DNA of 64,000 bases from Halobaculum marinum (GTDB taxonomy: Archaea; Halobacteriota; Halobacteria; Halobacteriales; Haloferacaceae). Of this stretch, positions 18,126 to 25,177 are shown piece after piece (the stretch's first letter is position 1; every line of letters starts with the position of its first letter). Both the position numbers and the translations under genes were made by a program. The notes beneath the pieces are model-generated. The model saw only the letters and a list, made by a program, of their open reading frames with translations, was not told the DNA's origin and searched no databases. Location of the stretch: the NCBI RefSeq assembly GCF_029338555.1, contig NZ_CP119989.1, forward strand, positions 2,046,001 to 2,110,000. Direction: 5' to 3'.

Positions 18126-19343
18126 TCACCCGACCAGCGTCGCCACCGCTCGCCGAACCGTCTCGGCGGCGTCGCGTACGCGGTCGACGCGAACGTACTC
18201 GCGCTCGCTGTGGGCGACGGCACCGACCTCGTCCGCGAGGTGGCCGGGACCGAACACGACCGTCGGCGCGGGCGAGAAGTACGACGCCTCCGTCGCCGCG
18301 CCGAACGGGCGAACCTCGCCGTCCCCGTCGCCACCGACCCCACGGGCCGCATCCGCCACCGCAGTCACCAGCGGATGGTCGGGGTCGGTGTCGAACGCCT
18401 CCAAGAACGGCGTCGGGCGCTCGGTGAGCGCGAAGTCGACGCCCACGTCGTCGGACACCGCGTCGCGGACCGCGGTTTCCAGCGACGACCGGAATCCCTC
18501 TGCGGTCTCCGGCGGCACGGAGCGGCGGTCGAGGGTCACCGTCGCGGCGGCGGGTACCTGGTTCGTCGCCTCTCCCCCCGCGACACCCGTGGGGACGAGC
18601 GTCGGCCCGCCGAGCATCGGGTGGGCCTCGGCGCCGTCGTCGAACGTGCGGACCGCCGCGAGCGCGTCTTCCAGCGCGGCGACGGCGTTGACTCCCGACG
18701 CCGGTTCGGCGGCGTGGGCCGCCGACCCCGCGAGCGTCAGGGTGCCTTCGAACCGCCCGCGTGCGGCGACGCACACGTCGCAGTCGGTCGGTTCGCCCAC
18801 GAGGTACAGGTCCCCGTCGACCGGGTCGACCGGGCCGTCGGGGTGGTCGTCGTCGCGCCCGCGGACGAGCGCGTCCGCCCCCGTCGACAGCGTCTCCTCG
18901 TCGGGAGTCACCGCGAGCGTCACACGCCCAGCGTCGGGATCGACGCTGAGGAACCCAGCCAGCAGGGCCGCGAGCGGTCCCTTCGCGTCGCACGACCCCC
19001 GTCCCCGGAACACCTCGCGGCCCGCCTCGTCGGTGTCGCGCTCGAAGTCGACGTGCGGCGGGACGGTGTCGATGTGGGTGTTGAGCACGAGATGTGGGCC
19101 GTCCGTGGCCGCATCAGGATCTGACGCGGACCGCGTCGCGCGGACGTTGCCCGCCGCGTCGACCCACGGGTCGACTCCGTGGTCGGCGAGCGTGTCGACG
19201 AGGAACTCTCGCATGGCGTCGGGCGACTCGTGTGACTGGATCTGGACCGCCTCCACGAGGAACGCGACCGGGTCGAACGACTCGTCGGTCGCGTCGGCCG
19301 CGTCAGCGTCCTCGGTGTCGGCGGCATCGGGTGCGTCGCTCAT
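18126..19343 (-). CDS. dapE: succinyl-diaminopimelate desuccinylase (M20 peptidase family)
   Basis: 405 residues. Hydrolyses N-succinyl-L,L-diaminopimelate to succinate and L,L-DAP. M20 zinc-binding blocks: LVLNTHIDTVPP near residue 80, RGRGSCDAKGPLAALL, and VTPDEETLSTGADAL with the catalytic Glu; C-terminal FGAATEASYFSPAPTVVFGPG. The N-terminal ~20 residues are an acidic Asp/Ala stretch. The ATG overlaps the dapF stop by 4 nt (ATGA). It is the last gene of the lysine operon. M20 enzymes are also annotated as ArgE or carboxypeptidase; the operon context decides for DapE. Confidence 0.92.
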   Translation of the reverse strand: MSDAPDAADTEDADAADATDESFDPVAFLVEAVQIQSHESPDAMREFLVDTLADHGVDPWVDAAGNVRATRSASDPDAATDGPHLVLNTHIDTVPPHVDFERDTDEAGREVFRGRGSCDAKGPLAALLAGFLSVDPDAGRVTLAVTPDEETLSTGADALVRGRDDDHPDGPVDPVDGDLYLVGEPTDCDVCVAARGRFEGTLTLAGSAAHAAEPASGVNAVAALEDALAAVRTFDDGAEAHPMLGGPTLVPTGVAGGEATNQVPAAATVTLDRRSVPPETAEGFRSSLETAVRDAVSDDVGVDFALTERPTPFLEAFDTDPDHPLVTAVADAARGVGGDGDGEVRPFGAATEASYFSPAPTVVFGPGHLADEVGAVAHSEREYVRVDRVRDAAETVRRAVATLVG

Positions 19344-20275
19344 CGTTCGCCCTCCGGAACCGGCAAGTCGACGGTGAACTCCCGCGCAGCGGGTCCGGTG
19401 AGCGTCGCTGGGCCGTCGTCGGGGACCGTAATCTGGAGCGTGCCGCCGGGTGGCGACACCGCCAGCGCCTCGCGGTCGGTGGACCCGAGTCGCCGAGCGA
19501 CCGCCCCGACCGCGACCGCGCCGGTTCCACACGCGAGCGTCTCTCCCTCGACGCCGCGCTCGAAGGTGCGCTGGTCGAACGTCCCGTCGCCGGTGTCGGC
19601 GGCGAGCGTCACGTTCGCGCCCTCGGGGAACACCGCTGCGTGGCGAACAGGCGGTGCGACCGCGTCGAGGTCGACCGCGTCCACGTCGTCGACGAACGCG
19701 ACGGCGTGTGGCACACCGGTGTCGACTACCGACACCGTCAGCCCCTCCACGACCGTCTCGATTAGCGGCTCCTCGCGGTCGGCGGCCAGCGGCACGTCTG
19801 CCGGCGCGAACGACGGGCGGCCCATCTCCACCTCGACGGTCACCTCGTCAGAAGCGTCGTCGTCGCCGGCGGTGACGGTCGCGCGTCGCACGCCCGCGGG
19901 CGTGTCGAGGTCGACGACGTTCGCGCCGGTGCGCTCCCGGACCCACGCCGCCGCACAGCGGGCGCCGTTGCCGCACATCTCGGCGATGGAGGCGTCCGGT
20001 TGGACGAGCGTCATCGTCGCCCGTGCGACGCCCTCCTCCTTGCCTCCGTCGCCACCGTCGTCGGTGATGTCCATGAACAGTACGCCGTCGGCACCGGTCC
20101 GGTCGTCCCCCTCGACGCCTGTCTCGCGGTCGCAGTGGTGGACCGCGAACGCGCCGCGGTCTGGCACGCCCGCGGCGTCTGCGGCGTCGACGACGAGGAA
20201 GTCGTTGCCCGTGCCGTGGTACTTCACCGCCGGGACGGTGTGTACGTCGGCATCGGTATCGGCGGCGTCGCTCAC
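19340..20275 (-). CDS. dapF: diaminopimelate epimerase
   Basis: 311 residues, GTG start overlapping the lysA stop (GTGA). Converts L,L-DAP to meso-DAP. Both catalytic cysteine motifs are present: MCGNGARCAA near residue 100 and LACGTGAVAVGA near 250. The substrate block YHGTGNDFLVVD is at the N-terminus, and the pairing of two homologous halves is clear. An acidic insertion (DITDDGGDGGKEEG) lies between strands. Haloarchaea have no peptidoglycan, so meso-DAP here is a lysine precursor only. It is translationally coupled to lysA before it and dapE after it. Confidence 0.96.
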   Translation of the reverse strand: MSDAADTDADVHTVPAVKYHGTGNDFLVVDAADAAGVPDRGAFAVHHCDRETGVEGDDRTGADGVLFMDITDDGGDGGKEEGVARATMTLVQPDASIAEMCGNGARCAAAWVRERTGANVVDLDTPAGVRRATVTAGDDDASDEVTVEVEMGRPSFAPADVPLAADREEPLIETVVEGLTVSVVDTGVPHAVAFVDDVDAVDLDAVAPPVRHAAVFPEGANVTLAADTGDGTFDQRTFERGVEGETLACGTGAVAVGAVARRLGSTDREALAVSPPGGTLQITVPDDGPATLTGPAAREFTVDLPVPEGER

Positions 20276-21546
20276 TCCGAGCCACCTCCCCGTTCCAACC
20301 GCGTCACGCCGTCGAGCGTCTCGCGCTCGCGGAGCACGTCGCCGTCGAGGGTGACCTCCGCGGGTCGCGGCCGGGAGTTGTACGTCGACGCCATCTCGTA
20401 GCCGTAGGCGCCGGCGTTGCCGACCGCGAGCAGGTCTCCCCGCTCCGGCACCGACAGCTCTCGTCCGTCGCAGAAGGTGTCGCCCGTCTCGCAGATCGGA
20501 CCGGCGACCGTGACCGGTCCGCGCCCCCGCCCGCCGTCGGTGTCTGCGTCGAGGTTCCGGATGGCGTGGTACGCGTCGTACATCGCCGGGCGCAGGAGGT
20601 CCGTCATCCCGGCGTCGACGCCCGCGACGGTCGTGTCGGGCGTCGGCTTCACCGTGTTCACCGCGGTCAGCAGGACGCCCGCGTCTGCGACGACGTAGCG
20701 GCCCGGTTCGACCGCGAGCGCGGCGTCAACGTCGCCGAGCGCCTCACGGGTCGCGGCTGCGACCGCGTCGAGGTCGAGCGGTGGGTCGTCCTCGTGGTAC
20801 GGCACGCCGAAGCCGCCGCCCACGTCGACGTACTCCAGGTCGCCGACCTCGCGAGCGAGGTCGCCCATCCGCGCGACCAACTCCCGGTGGGCCGCGAGGT
20901 CGTCTTCGCCGTGGATACCCGACCCGGCGTGGGCGTGGACGCCGACGACCTCGAAGTCGTCGCGCGCGTCGGCAACTACGTCGGCGGCGCGGTCGTACGG
21001 CACGCCGAACTTCGCGGCGGCGCCCGTGCGCACCTTCTCGTGGTGGCCGGCGCCGATGCCGGGGTTGACGCGGACGCAGACGCGTCCGTCGAAGCCGCGC
21101 TCGGCGAGGCGGTCGAGCGTGTCGCGCGCGCCGACGGTGATCGTCAGTTCGGGGTGGGCAGTCCACCACTCGACGACGAGGTCGAGGTCGCGAGCGGGCG
21201 GGTTGACCGCCGTGTAGTGGAGTCGCTCGCCGGCGAATCCGGCGTCGAGCGCCCGTCGGACCTCGCCGGCGGAGGCACACTCGGCGTCGATTCCCGACTC
21301 GCGGACCGTCTCCAGCACCGCCCGACCGGTGTGGGCCTTCACCGCGTATCGGATCTCGGCGTCGGGGAAGGCGTCGCGGAGGCGCACGCAGTTCTGTGCG
21401 ACCCGGTCGAGGTCGGTGACGTACAGTGGCGTTCCGTGGTCGGCCGCGAGGTCGCGCAGGCGGTCGGCGTCCCAGTCGGCGAGGCGACGCACGGCGGGGC
21501 CGCCCGAGGCCTCCTCGGTCGCGGGGTCCGTCGCGTCCGCGCTCAT
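20272..21546 (-). CDS. lysA: diaminopimelate decarboxylase
   Basis: 424 residues. PLP-dependent alanine-racemase-fold decarboxylase making L-lysine from meso-DAP. PLP lysine in IRYAVKAHTGRAVLE near residue 68, the glycine-rich phosphate loop GGGFGVPYHEDDPP, and the active-site Cys block GPICETGDTFC near 345. It sits between dapD and dapF and overlaps both by 4 nt, so the final enzyme of the pathway is encoded in the middle of the operon. The N-terminus carries an acidic leader (MSADATDPATEEASGG) typical of this organism. Confidence 0.96.
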   Translation of the reverse strand: MSADATDPATEEASGGPAVRRLADWDADRLRDLAADHGTPLYVTDLDRVAQNCVRLRDAFPDAEIRYAVKAHTGRAVLETVRESGIDAECASAGEVRRALDAGFAGERLHYTAVNPPARDLDLVVEWWTAHPELTITVGARDTLDRLAERGFDGRVCVRVNPGIGAGHHEKVRTGAAAKFGVPYDRAADVVADARDDFEVVGVHAHAGSGIHGEDDLAAHRELVARMGDLAREVGDLEYVDVGGGFGVPYHEDDPPLDLDAVAAATREALGDVDAALAVEPGRYVVADAGVLLTAVNTVKPTPDTTVAGVDAGMTDLLRPAMYDAYHAIRNLDADTDGGRGRGPVTVAGPICETGDTFCDGRELSVPERGDLLAVGNAGAYGYEMASTYNSRPRPAEVTLDGDVLRERETLDGVTRLERGGGSE

Positions 21547-22388
21547 TCGCGCAGCGCGTCCTCCCGCTGCGTCGCCTCCAGCGTCTCCGTCTCTACGTCG
21601 GTCGCGACGACTGCCGGCTTGTACGCGCCGCCGTCGAACAGGTCGTGGTCGCTCACGCTCGACTCGACGAACCGCGTGAACGCGCGGCGGTTCTCGGGGA
21701 GGTGACCGTACACGACTTCCTCCTCGACGAGGTCGTACACCGGGATCCGCGGGGTGAGCAGCGTGTTCTCGCCCACGATGGAGTTCTCGCCGACGCGGAA
21801 GCCGGAGGTGACGCGACAGCCGGCGCCCAGCGAGACGCCGTCCTCGACGATGACGGGTGCGTCCTCGACCGGTTCGAGCACGCCGCCGATCAGCGTGTTC
21901 GCCCCCAGCTTCACGTTCTCGCCCAGTTGCGCACAGGAGCCGACTGTGTCACAGGAGTCGACGAGCGTGCCGTCGCCAACGTACGCACCGATGTTGACGA
22001 ACGACGGGCTCATCATGATCGTGTCGTCGCCGAGGTGAGCGCCGCGGCGGAGCACGGTGCCGTCGGGCGTGTTGCGCGCACCGCGCGCTTCGAGGTCCTC
22101 GGTCTCGCGCAACGGGAGCACGTCGTAGTAGCCGACGCCACCGTACTCGCGGCGCTCGGTCTCGCGGAGGCCGAAGTTGAGGAGCACGCCGCGCTTGACC
22201 CACTCGTTGGCCTCCCACGAGTCGACGCCGTCGCCGGTCTTGCGGGCGGCGCGGACCTCGCCCGCCTCCAGGGCGTCGAGGAACTCGTCGAGGGTGCGTC
22301 GGTCGTCGGCGTTCGCGTCGGTCGCGGTGAGGCCGTCGTCGTAGCGGTTCCACAGGTCGTCGATGTCGGATTCCAGTGTCGTCGTCAT
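21543..22388 (-). CDS. dapD: tetrahydrodipicolinate N-succinyltransferase
   Basis: 281 residues. Transfers succinyl from succinyl-CoA to L-2-amino-6-oxopimelate. The left-handed parallel beta-helix is visible as hexapeptide repeats from about residue 105 to 210 (GAHLGDDTIMMSPSFVNIGA, GDGTLVDSCDTVGSCAQLGE, then GANTLIGG and GVSLGAGC). The N-terminal helical domain begins MTTTLESDIDDLWNRYD. This start is preferred because its ATG overlaps the dapB stop by 4 nt (ATGA). Its presence shows that the organism uses the succinylase branch rather than the LL-DAP aminotransferase (DapL) shortcut. Confidence 0.95.
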   Translation of the reverse strand: MTTTLESDIDDLWNRYDDGLTATDANADDRRTLDEFLDALEAGEVRAARKTGDGVDSWEANEWVKRGVLLNFGLRETERREYGGVGYYDVLPLRETEDLEARGARNTPDGTVLRRGAHLGDDTIMMSPSFVNIGAYVGDGTLVDSCDTVGSCAQLGENVKLGANTLIGGVLEPVEDAPVIVEDGVSLGAGCRVTSGFRVGENSIVGENTLLTPRIPVYDLVEEEVVYGHLPENRRAFTRFVESSVSDHDLFDGGAYKPAVVATDVETETLEATQREDALRE

Positions 22389-23149
22389 TCGAGTACCTCC
22401 GTGAAGTCGTAGGCGCCGGCGTCGCGGCCGGCGAGCCACGCGGCGGCGTCGAGCGCGCCGGCGGCGAACACGCGCCGAGAGCCGGCGCGGTGCGTCAGTT
22501 CGAGCACGTTCTCGTCGCCCGCGAGCAACACCTCGTGCTCGCCCGCGATGTCGCCCGCACGGCGGGCGTGGACGCCGATCTCACCATCGGTGCGAGGGGA
22601 ATCGCCTTCCCGCCCGTGGACTCGCTCGTCCAATTCCGGGCGCGCCGCCTCGATGTCGTCCAGCAGGGTGAGCGCGGTGCCGCTCGGGGCGTCGACCTTC
22701 GCGTTGTGGTGCGTCTCGGTGACCTCCACGTCGTAGCCGGGGAGCGCCGCCGCCGCCTCCGACACCGCTCGGCGGAGCGCGGCGACCCCACGCGAGAAAT
22801 TCGACGCGCGGAGGACGGGAACGGTCCTTGCGGCGTCGGCGAGCGCGGCCTCCTGTTCGTCGTCGAAGCCGGTCGTCCCGACGACGCAGGCGACGCCCGC
22901 CTCGGCGGCCGCGGCGACGTACTCCACGCTGGAGTCGGGGCCGGTGAAATCGACGAGCACGTCCGGGTCGCTGTCGGCCAGCAGTGCCGGCAGGTTCGTG
23001 GCGTCGTCGACCGCGACGCCTTCGACGGGGTCGACGGGCGAGCGGTTCACCGCGAGTGCGACGTCGCAGTCGTCGCGGTCGTTGGCGGCGGCGATCACCT
23101 CCCGGCCCATCCGACCGTCGGCGCCTGTCACGGCGATTCGGGCCGGCAC
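22385..23149 (-). CDS. dapB: 4-hydroxy-tetrahydrodipicolinate reductase
   Basis: 254 residues, GTG start. NAD(P)H-dependent reduction in lysine synthesis. The N-terminal Rossmann motif is VTGADGRMGREV (G-x-x-G-x-x-G), followed by DFTGPDSSVEY, VVGTTGFDDEQ and the substrate/catalytic block VEVTETHHNAKVDAPSGTAL (the His-His-x-x-K-x-D-x-P-S-G-T-A-L signature). The length is normal. It starts 1 nt after the dapA stop and overlaps dapD by 4 nt. Confidence 0.97.
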   Translation of the reverse strand: MPARIAVTGADGRMGREVIAAANDRDDCDVALAVNRSPVDPVEGVAVDDATNLPALLADSDPDVLVDFTGPDSSVEYVAAAAEAGVACVVGTTGFDDEQEAALADAARTVPVLRASNFSRGVAALRRAVSEAAAALPGYDVEVTETHHNAKVDAPSGTALTLLDDIEAARPELDERVHGREGDSPRTDGEIGVHARRAGDIAGEHEVLLAGDENVLELTHRAGSRRVFAAGALDAAAWLAGRDAGAYDFTEVLE

Positions 23150-23150
23150 G

Positions 23151-24062
23151 TCAGGCCTCCGTCGCTGTCGCGTCGGCGTCCTCCAACTCGGCGAGCAGTT
23201 CCGTGAGCACGCGCAGCGTCTCGTCGCTCCCGCGCGTCAGCGGCGGACGCATCTCGGCGGGGCCGTAGCCGCGGATGGCCATCGCCTCCTTCACCGGGAT
23301 GGGGTTCGTCTCGCGGAACAGCGCCCGCGTCAGCGGGCCGAGGTCGTGGTGGATCGCACGGGCCGTCTCGAAGTCCTCCTCCAACGCGGCGTGGACGAGT
23401 CGGCTCGTGCGCTCGGGTTCGACGTTCGCGACGACCGAGATGGTGCCCGTCGCGCCCATCGACATCACGGGCAGCGTCATGCCGTCGTCACCCGAGAGCA
23501 CGTCGAACGTCTCCTCGCGGGTGCGCTCGATGATCTCCGAGATCTGGTTCGCGTCGCCGGAGGCCGCCTTGTACCCCTGGATGTTCTCGTGGCCCGCGAG
23601 GTCGACGATGGTGTCGACGTCGAGGTTCGAGCCGGTCCGACTCGGGACGTTGTACACGATCTGCGGGATGTCGACGGCGTCCGCGATGGTCGCGTAGTGC
23701 TCGTACTGGCCGGCGGGCACGGGCTTGTTGTAGTACGGCGAGATGAGCAGGGCCGCGTCGGCGCCGGCGTCGGCGGCGCGCTCGGTGAGGTCCAGCGCCT
23801 CACGCGTCGAGTTCGAACCGGTGCCGGCGATGACGGGCACGTCGACGGCGTCGACGACCGTCTCGACGACCTCGGCGTGTTCGTCGTGCGTCAGGGTGGC
23901 CGCCTCGCCGGTCGAACCGACCGGGACGAGGCCGTCGACGCCCGCGTCGGCGAGGCGTCGCGCGTCGGCTGCGAGCTGTTCGTGGTCGACCGCGTCGGTG
24001 CCGTCGGTGAACGGTGTCGTCATCGCCGGGTAGACGCCGGCGAAGGTGTCGTGGTGGATCAT
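23151..24062 (-). CDS. dapA: 4-hydroxy-tetrahydrodipicolinate synthase
   Basis: 303 residues. Condenses pyruvate with aspartate semialdehyde, the committed step of lysine synthesis. TIM-barrel DapA/NAL signatures: FAGVYPAMTTPFTDG at the N-terminus, GSTGEAATLTHDEHAEV, catalytic Tyr in LLISPYYNKPVPAGQYEHY and Schiff-base Lys in IQGYKAASGD near 166. First enzyme gene of a six-gene operon (dapA-B-D-lysA-F-E). Upstream is a ~200-nt leader from the likely TATA box, with a 28-codon ORF, so expression may respond to translation of that leader. A dedicated dapC aminotransferase is not in the cluster; ArgD-type enzymes often fill that step. Confidence 0.96.
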   Translation of the reverse strand: MIHHDTFAGVYPAMTTPFTDGTDAVDHEQLAADARRLADAGVDGLVPVGSTGEAATLTHDEHAEVVETVVDAVDVPVIAGTGSNSTREALDLTERAADAGADAALLISPYYNKPVPAGQYEHYATIADAVDIPQIVYNVPSRTGSNLDVDTIVDLAGHENIQGYKAASGDANQISEIIERTREETFDVLSGDDGMTLPVMSMGATGTISVVANVEPERTSRLVHAALEEDFETARAIHHDLGPLTRALFRETNPIPVKEAMAIRGYGPAEMRPPLTRGSDETLRVLTELLAELEDADATATEA

Positions 24063-24176
24063 GGCTGTCGTGTGTGGTGTGGTTCGCTTGGTGTCGGATT
24101 CGGGTGTGCTGTAGACGAGCGGACCGCAGACCGGAACTCACCCCCGACCGGACGCTACGCCTGGCCGAGGACGATC

Positions 24177-24263
24177 TCACACACGTTTCCGTTTCGCGGA
24201 GAAGACAGGGCGGACACTCGGCTCGACGACCGCGGCGGGCGTCGAGGTCGGCGTCTCGCTCAT
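24177..24263 (-). CDS. putative 28-residue leader peptide of the lysine operon
   Basis: ATG to TGA, 28 codons, on the same strand as dapA and 114 nt upstream of it. It begins MSETPTSTPAAVV and ends SAKRKRV. The last codons are AAA CGG AAA CGT GTG TGA; lysine is normally AAG in this genome, so two AAA codons next to the stop stand out. A minus-strand TATA-like CCTTTACTGG is centred about 26 nt before the ATG, the correct spacing for a leaderless mRNA starting at this codon. GC-rich inverted sequence follows between the ORF and dapA. I infer a translated leader that may tie operon expression to lysine or arginine supply. It could also be an ORF by chance. Confidence 0.45.
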   Translation of the reverse strand: MSETPTSTPAAVVEPSVRPVFSAKRKRV

Positions 24264-24283
24264 TGCCGGTAGGTGTCGCGTCA

Positions 24284-24293
24284 CCAGTAAAGG
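24284..24293 (-). promoter_or_regulatory. TATA box of the dap-lysA operon
   Basis: CCTTTACTGG on the minus strand, centred about 26 nt upstream of the leader ORF ATG and about 226 nt upstream of the dapA start. No better TATA candidate is seen within 60 nt of dapA. The gap between dapA and the phosphoribosyltransferase gene is 404 nt. Besides the leader ORF and the two promoters, its middle part (24294-24430) shows nothing I can name. Confidence 0.5.
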
Positions 24294-24435
24294 CGTTTCC
24301 CTGTGGGCCGATTTTGTGGATCGCGGCGCCCGCACGCGGTTCGCCGCCCGTTCACGTCGGCAGTGTGACGCGTCAGCGAGTCGTGGACCCGCGTCGTCGA
24401 CCCGTCAACGAGCCCACGCGTGGCGCCTGTAAACG

Positions 24436-24442
24436 CTTATCC
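24436..24442 (+). promoter_or_regulatory. TATA-like element of the phosphoribosyltransferase gene
   Basis: CTTATCC lies within TGTAAACGCTTATCCG, about 29 nt before the ATG. This fits leaderless transcription and supports the chosen start of the downstream gene over longer in-frame forms. Confidence 0.45.
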
Positions 24443-24466
24443 GAACACCGCCACCACGGGCAGGTA

Positions 24467-25177
24467 ATGAGCGACCTCCCGGACGACTTCGACTGTACGG
24501 TCTCCAATTGGGAGTACATCTACGGACTGTGCCGCGACGTGTCCGACCAGGTGAAGGCCGCCAACTTCGAACCGGACGTGGTCGTCGCGCTCGCGCGCGG
24601 CGGCTGGTTCGCCGGCCGGTGTATCTGCGACTTCCTCGGCCTCAACGATCTCACGAGCCTGAAGATGGAACACTACGTCGGGACCGCCGAGAAGACCGGC
24701 GAACCGACCGTGCGCTACCCGATGCCGGAGGGGAGCGTCGCCGGCAAGGACGTGCTGATCATCGACGACATCGCCGACACCGGCGGGTCGATCAAGCGCG
24801 CTCACGAGTACGTCGCCGAGCGCGACTGCGGCGAGGTGCGCACCGCGACGCTCCAACTGCTCCAGACGTCGGAGTTCGAACCGGACTTCGTCGGCGAGCA
24901 ACTCGAGGAGTGGACGTGGATGGTGTACCCGTGGAACTTCATCGAGGACATGATCGACCTCACCAGCGGCGCGATGGAGCAGGCCGACGCCGAGGCGTTC
25001 ACCGAGGAGGACGTGCGCCACTACCTCGCGGAGTTCCACGGCATCGACCGCATCGAGATGGAGATCGCCCAGCCGGGTCGCGTCGGCGAGGTGCTCGCGG
25101 AGATGGAGCGGCGCGACGTGGTCCGCGAGACCGCCGACGGCTACCGCCTGCTCGACAACGGCGCCGGCGACGAGTAA
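24467..25177 (+). CDS. purine-type phosphoribosyltransferase
   Basis: 236 residues. A type I phosphoribosyltransferase with the PRPP-binding loop VLIIDDIADTGGSI near residues 95-108 and the N-terminal block VVVALARGGWFAGRCICDFL (PPi loop). It resembles Gpt/Hpt-like purine salvage enzymes, but nucleobase specificity is not readable. About 75 C-terminal residues beyond the PRT core (from FTEEDVRHYLAEFHGI to YRLLDNGAGDE) look like a small helical/winged-helix appendage (VGEVLAEMERRDVVRETADGYRLL), so a regulatory role is possible, as for GfcR. The AEC transporter gene follows after 12 nt and is likely co-transcribed. Confidence 0.87.
   Translation: MSDLPDDFDCTVSNWEYIYGLCRDVSDQVKAANFEPDVVVALARGGWFAGRCICDFLGLNDLTSLKMEHYVGTAEKTGEPTVRYPMPEGSVAGKDVLIIDDIADTGGSIKRAHEYVAERDCGEVRTATLQLLQTSEFEPDFVGEQLEEWTWMVYPWNFIEDMIDLTSGAMEQADAEAFTEEDVRHYLAEFHGIDRIEMEIAQPGRVGEVLAEMERRDVVRETADGYRLLDNGAGDE

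Follow-up and report, generated by a model that had tools for sequence, protein, structure and literature searches.

In bacteria, amino-acid attenuation is textbook knowledge. In the bacterial trp, his, thr, phe, and ilv attenuators, the matching biosynthetic or tRNA-synthetase operon is headed by a short ORF in which the regulated amino acid is frequent, a conserved RNA structure follows directly after the ORF, the peptide body is poorly conserved, and the RNA switches between 1:2/3:4 and 2:3 pairing. The Corynebacterium ilvBNC leader, a bacterial and terminator-based attenuator, also contains the regulated amino acids. Its leader peptide reportedly forms although a ribosome binding site is lacking (title cited in PMC13158618). 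Lysine riboswitches (L-box) and T-boxes are elements of the 5′ leader RNA that regulate genes for lysine or aminoacyl-tRNA, and TnaC and SecM are known as arrest peptides. We know of no archaeal case of amino-acid attenuation, and a search of the open-access literature (subscription papers lay outside its scope) found no report of an archaeal leader-peptide attenuator or of a dapA leader. In Haloferax volcanii, uORFs of 15–31 amino acids in long 5′-UTRs have been described at mapped transcription start sites upstream of genes (Babski et al., 2016; PMC4983044). dapA is absent from that list of 16 cases, a point against the reading proposed below.

The dapA leader of Halobaculum marinum shares the general plan of the bacterial attenuators. 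It differs from them in its archaeal host, in its leaderless mRNA that has no Shine-Dalgarno (SD) sequence, in the lack of a hairpin-plus-U-run terminator, and in a proposed closing stem, formed from the last leader codons, in place of the bacterial pairing scheme. Unlike the L-box and T-box, this element has no Rfam match, is much smaller, and is predicted to include a translated Lys-rich ORF. Unlike TnaC and SecM, the leader shows no peptide conservation beyond the sensed residue, and its C-termini vary. On the sequence comparisons presented here, we consider it quite likely that this locus is a ribosome-mediated, lysyl-tRNA-sensing, attenuator-like regulator of the diaminopimelate (DAP) operon.

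The window (the whole stretch of 64,000 nucleotides that was analyzed) contains the leader, its promoter, and six downstream genes that curated NCBIfam models assign to lysine biosynthesis in the order dapA-dapB-dapD-lysA-dapF-dapE. A divergent phosphoribosyltransferase gene lies 5′ of the leader. The features are as follows.
24286–24299, minus strand: BRE (GAAACG) and TATA element (TTTACT), recognized by sequence and kept in Halobaculum.
24177–24263, minus strand: leaderless leader ORF, MSETPTSTPAAVVEPSVRPVFSAKRKRV followed by the stop, supported by sequence, conservation, and a codon-position test.
24186–24194, minus strand: Lys-Arg-Lys codons AAA CGG AAA, the proposed stall sites, supported by sequence and by Lys enrichment of the tail.
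23151–24062, minus strand: dapA, 4-hydroxy-tetrahydrodipicolinate synthase, the first regulated gene (TIGR00674).
22385–23149, minus strand: dapB (TIGR00036).
21543–22391, minus strand: dapD (NF008808).
20272–21546, minus strand: lysA, diaminopimelate decarboxylase (TIGR01048).
19340–20275, minus strand: dapF (TIGR00652).
18126–19346, minus strand: dapE, with an approximate start (NF006402).

The original prediction described a leaderless 28-codon ATG-TGA ORF on the dapA strand that heads the lysine biosynthesis operon, and the locus bears this out. The ORF runs from the ATG at 24263 to the TGA at 24177 and ends in AAA CGG AAA CGT GTG TGA, and dapA begins at 24062, 114 nt 3′ of the leader stop as had been stated. 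The TATA core TTTA (24291–24288) occupies positions −28 to −25 relative to the ATG, with the BRE at 24299–24294. This is the usual haloarchaeal spacing for leaderless transcripts, and the predicted transcript start is at or adjoining the ATG. No other promoter was seen for the dap operon. Among 100 loci, AT content peaks at −34/−33 and at −29 to −26 from the leader start with no such peak 5′ of dapA, and no TATA element directly precedes dapA. Because the AT peaks sit 5′ of the leader rather than of dapA, the operon appears to have the leader promoter only. The claimed rarity of AAA codons also holds, as the six dap/lys genes of the window contain no AAA and 15 AAG.

Within Halobaculum, the promoter and its TATA spacing, the start, KRV end, and stop are kept in all relatives that bear dapA. 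Their leaders stay close to the pattern MS.TP.ST...VE..VR..F...KRV-stop and differ in length by multiples of 3 nt. One relative (G010) has neither an orthologue of this dapA nor the RNA element described below, which makes it a natural control. This genome also has no hisG match and is possibly an amino-acid auxotroph or affected by an assembly gap. Across about 100 distinct regions from many genera, a leaderless ATG/GTG ORF with a Lys-rich tail (median length, 26 codons) lies 5′ of dapA in essentially all Halobacteria examined. The tails include FSKKRV, FPKRKRV, FLKKRP, AKRKPTF, KPKRKQPF, and GLKRTKGGY. Lys makes up 25.6% of the last eight residues versus 0.4% of the body in 100 leaders, and it is encoded by 198 AAA and 15 AAG codons. 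Lysine and arginine had both been put forward as the signal. Lys is consistent across the class, but Arg is also common in the bodies, and tails such as GLKRTKGGY, KFKTACC, and FVKFFGKVGT contain few Arg residues. A frameshifting (slippery) reading of AAAAAA was rejected, as the frame is wrong for it and the AAA codons are separated from one another in many leaders. In two related Natrinema species (L011 and L013), the leader stop TGA is changed to TGC, which extends the ORF across the beginning of the hairpin as far as a TAG.

Lys and TATA scores partly guided the choice of leaders for the catalogue; the randomized control nonetheless used one strict rule (TATA spacing, 20–45 codons, and at least two Lys in the last eight residues) on real and random regions alike. 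This rule identified leaders in 77 of 100 dapA upstream regions, compared with 0 of 100 in each of five Markov-randomized sets. Such a result speaks against the reading that promoter or operator DNA is conserved and an ORF is seen there by chance. The promoter block is indeed well kept in Halobaculum, as that reading would have it, but frame-preserving indels, synonymous substitutions within the tail, and RNA-type covariation are at odds with it, and we regard it as exceedingly improbable.

The alignment of relatives that had been proposed as a check, with absence of conservation as the refuting outcome, shows that the short ORF, the spacing between start and TATA, and the Lys-rich end are kept across the class, with purifying selection in the last codons only. 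Counted over 216 close pairs that are not phylogenetically independent, the body has 951/957/764 substitutions at codon positions 1/2/3, and the last eight codons have 69/111/229. Because the position-3 excess is confined to the last eight codons, these counts indicate that only the tail is selected as protein and that the body drifts freely. Selection on the tail only would be expected of an attenuator leader and speaks against a microprotein or an arrest peptide. The possibility that the basic peptide itself is functional, either as a nascent-chain arrest peptide or as an RNA/DNA-binding microprotein, draws on the basic and conserved KKR/KRKR tail. However, the body has no amino-acid constraint, and the tails vary widely apart from Lys (e.g., AKRKPTF, GLKRTKGGY, and KFKTACC), so such a function appears highly improbable.

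Between the leader and dapA, the original prediction had placed a GC-rich inverted segment. An inverted structure is present, but the predicted position was slightly off, and the structure is more than a GC-rich repeat: it consists of a specific covarying hairpin together with a candidate closing stem that would use the 3′ end of the leader. The features of this RNA element are as follows.
24138–24174, minus strand: conserved hairpin, supported by covariation and a covariance model; stem P1 pairs 24174–24167 with 24145–24138, stem P2 pairs 24165–24160 with 24152–24147, and the loop is approximately GCGTAGC.
24178–24185, minus strand: region 1 (CGTGTGTG), the last two leader codons and part of the stop, proposed to form the 5′ arm of a closing stem, P0, and supported by own-versus-swapped pairing.
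24069–24109, minus strand: candidate 3′ partners of region 1, either GCACAC at 24109–24104 or CACACACG at 24076–24069 adjoining the dapA start; taken by itself, this genome gives weak support.

The median distance from the leader stop to the start of P1 is 2 nt, and the hairpin consensus is GCUCG-n-GGCGGG-nGURGCGnC-CCCGUC-n-CGGGC. In an alignment of 64 sequences, 93.2% of the pair cells hold standard pairs versus 81.9% after shuffling (a level reached in 0 of 500 shuffles), and 81 cells are changed on both sides compared with 27 in shuffled alignments. Sliding the partner strand by one to three columns lowers pairing to 38–51%. The result holds when the analysis is repeated on 99 sequences aligned to a covariance model. 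This model finds matches in 56 of 60 genomes of the family and in 267 of 292 Halobacteria genomes, representing 70 of 77 genera and normally with one match per genome. Weak second matches (E = 0.001–0.09) are inconsistent between genomes and were set aside as probable chance hits. Sampling 247 genomes across the phylum gave 35 matches, every one of them within the class, and the model detected no hairpin in the roughly 200 sampled genomes outside Halobacteria.

The apical loop (24159–24153; GURGC-like) is strongly conserved in sequence, beyond the needs of pairing, and may be contacted by a protein, the ribosome, or a different part of the RNA. In most species, a YYCG motif is kept 3–6 nt after P1 (24135–24132 by position in the window). 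A competing hairpin, P3, in which the 3′ strand of P1 would pair with this motif (CGGG/YYCG), was rejected because its pairing is no better than that of shuffled sequences.

The loop, together with an invariant G-U/C-G pair, is also what favors a riboswitch-like reading, in which the hairpin is a site for an RNA-binding protein or a small molecule and the leader ORF merely delivers or clears ribosomes. Such conservation exceeds what simple pairing needs. However, the Lys-specific tail, the choice of AAA, the selection on the tail only, and the matched Phe and Ile/Val/Leu leaders found elsewhere (see below) would all be left unexplained, and a hairpin of about 37 nt is small for a lysine aptamer. 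Rfam also offers no matching family. No Rfam match was found within 23900–24600 of the window at E values up to 1 or in four related loci at the gathering thresholds, and the lysine riboswitch and T-box family models gave no match at the leader locus. Taken together, this explanation seems rather unlikely.

For the closing stem P0, the evidence comes from comparing how well a leader pairs with its own downstream RNA and with that of other species. Counting the stop, the final 12 nt of the leader reach −10.77 kcal/mol with their own downstream RNA versus −9.26 kcal/mol with swapped RNA (z = −7.5; 100 loci), and other leader windows give z values from −1.7 to +0.6. The region 1 signal is confined to positions +40 to +60 from the stop (z = −7.8), with other positions near 0, and in 41 non-redundant loci the P0 signal is z = −4.3 with flat controls. 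These patterns point to covariation between region 1 and the downstream RNA. Striking examples of the two arms are ACGUGCGU/ACGCACGU in Haloferax (L078), CGUCCGUA/UACGGACG in two Halogranum loci (L002 and L016), GCGUCGAU/AUCGACGC in locus L100, and GCGCACC/GGUGCGC in locus L098. The window's own sequence has no strong partner of region 1 at the class-wide position of +40 to +60. Pairing of P0 with the dapA start region is weak across the class (z = −2.4), with no own-versus-swapped signal in Halobaculum. P0 encloses P1 and does not compete with it, and mutually exclusive states are argued only through the exclusion that a ribosome would impose on P0.

The preferred reading, sensing of lysyl-tRNA by the translating ribosome, would operate as follows. 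The transcript would start at the leader ATG, and the ribosome would begin at the 5′ end of the transcript. When Lys-tRNA is scarce, especially the tRNA that reads AAA, the ribosome would stall at the Lys codons, and its footprint would cover region 1, such that P0 pairing is blocked and P1/P2 are free to fold. With ample Lys-tRNA, the ribosome would reach the stop and leave, region 1 would be released, and P0 could close around P1/P2. Translation of the tail would thus report tRNA charging, with stalling as the sensor and lysine starvation as the ON state, and the output would be transcript elongation. The leader, its Lys tail, the position of the promoter, the hairpin, and the covariation of region 1 are visible in the sequences and support the sensing logic well, whereas the stalling itself, the output, and the sign of the response are inferred. 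In 90 of 99 loci, no T-run before dapA is longer than 3. Because long T-runs are rare there, an intrinsic terminator (hairpin plus U-run) was rejected as a general feature, and the leader is not an attenuator of the bacterial hairpin-plus-U-run type. As the hairpin lacks a U-run, termination would need a factor, such as FttA/aCPSF1, a known candidate for archaeal transcription termination. FttA-dependent termination has been named as the likely cause of archaeal polarity (PMC12548453) and may act at the dapA leader. Alternatively, the output may be control of dapA translation or mRNA decay.

The region before dapA bears on another explanation, in which the leader is a uORF that feeds dapA translation by termination-reinitiation or sets basal expression. 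The leader is near dapA and co-transcribed with it, and dapA has no SD sequence (0 of 100 loci), so the leader could conceivably aid initiation. The sequence around the dapA start is rich in C and A and weakly structured. However, the gap between the leader stop and dapA (78–236 nt) is outside the coupling range, as translational coupling in H. volcanii fades beyond 30–40 nt (review PMC12548453). Reinitiation also predicts neither the Lys codons nor the hairpin, and this explanation is very unlikely.

If amino-acid sensing operates here, leaders matched to the respective amino acid would be expected at other operons as well. Leaders were sought by gene family upstream of pheS, ilvB, trpC, trpE, trpS, hisG, thrC, and lysS. 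More than half of 28 relatives have a leaderless leader with a Phe tail (e.g., GFGFFFAA and SGFFFPRR) before pheS (loci L156–L180), and in the window's own genome (L155) the pheS leader is below the detection threshold. The published H. volcanii transcript map independently includes a uORF of 26 amino acids before pheS (PMC4983044). The passage on these uORFs proposes no regulated amino acid or attenuation, whereas the pheS leader is found here to be Phe-rich and conserved. Before ilvB, most relatives (L210–L237) have a leaderless leader with an Ile/Val/Leu-rich end (e.g., SIIIVGA and SLIIVGAA), and in the window's own genome (L225) this end is VVALLAVVVGIVGA. These leaders end in IVGA and the stop, and a GUAGGGG/CCCCUAC hairpin spans the stop codon. 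Because this hairpin also constrains the ending, the ilvB case rests more on the residues before IVGA. For trpC, trpE, trpS, hisG, thrC, and lysS, no consistent amino-acid-matched leader was found among the relatives.

With moderate confidence, we propose that Halobacteria have a class-wide set of leaderless leader peptides (Lys at dapA, Phe at pheS, and Ile/Val/Leu at ilvB) that act as sensors of tRNA charging, and that the dapA leader works through a terminator-free RNA switch that depends on the ribosome covering the 5′ arm of P0. This would be an archaeal version of attenuation with a different output, such as FttA-dependent termination. If this is true, a class-wide lysine-specific leader and a new RNA motif would indicate that archaea, too, use the speed of translation in controlling transcripts, and that they do so without a Shine-Dalgarno sequence and without an intrinsic terminator. 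The features of the dapA leader provide a search rule for further leaders. Moreover, transcription-translation coupling and FttA-dependent attenuation in archaea would become directly testable in Haloferax volcanii.
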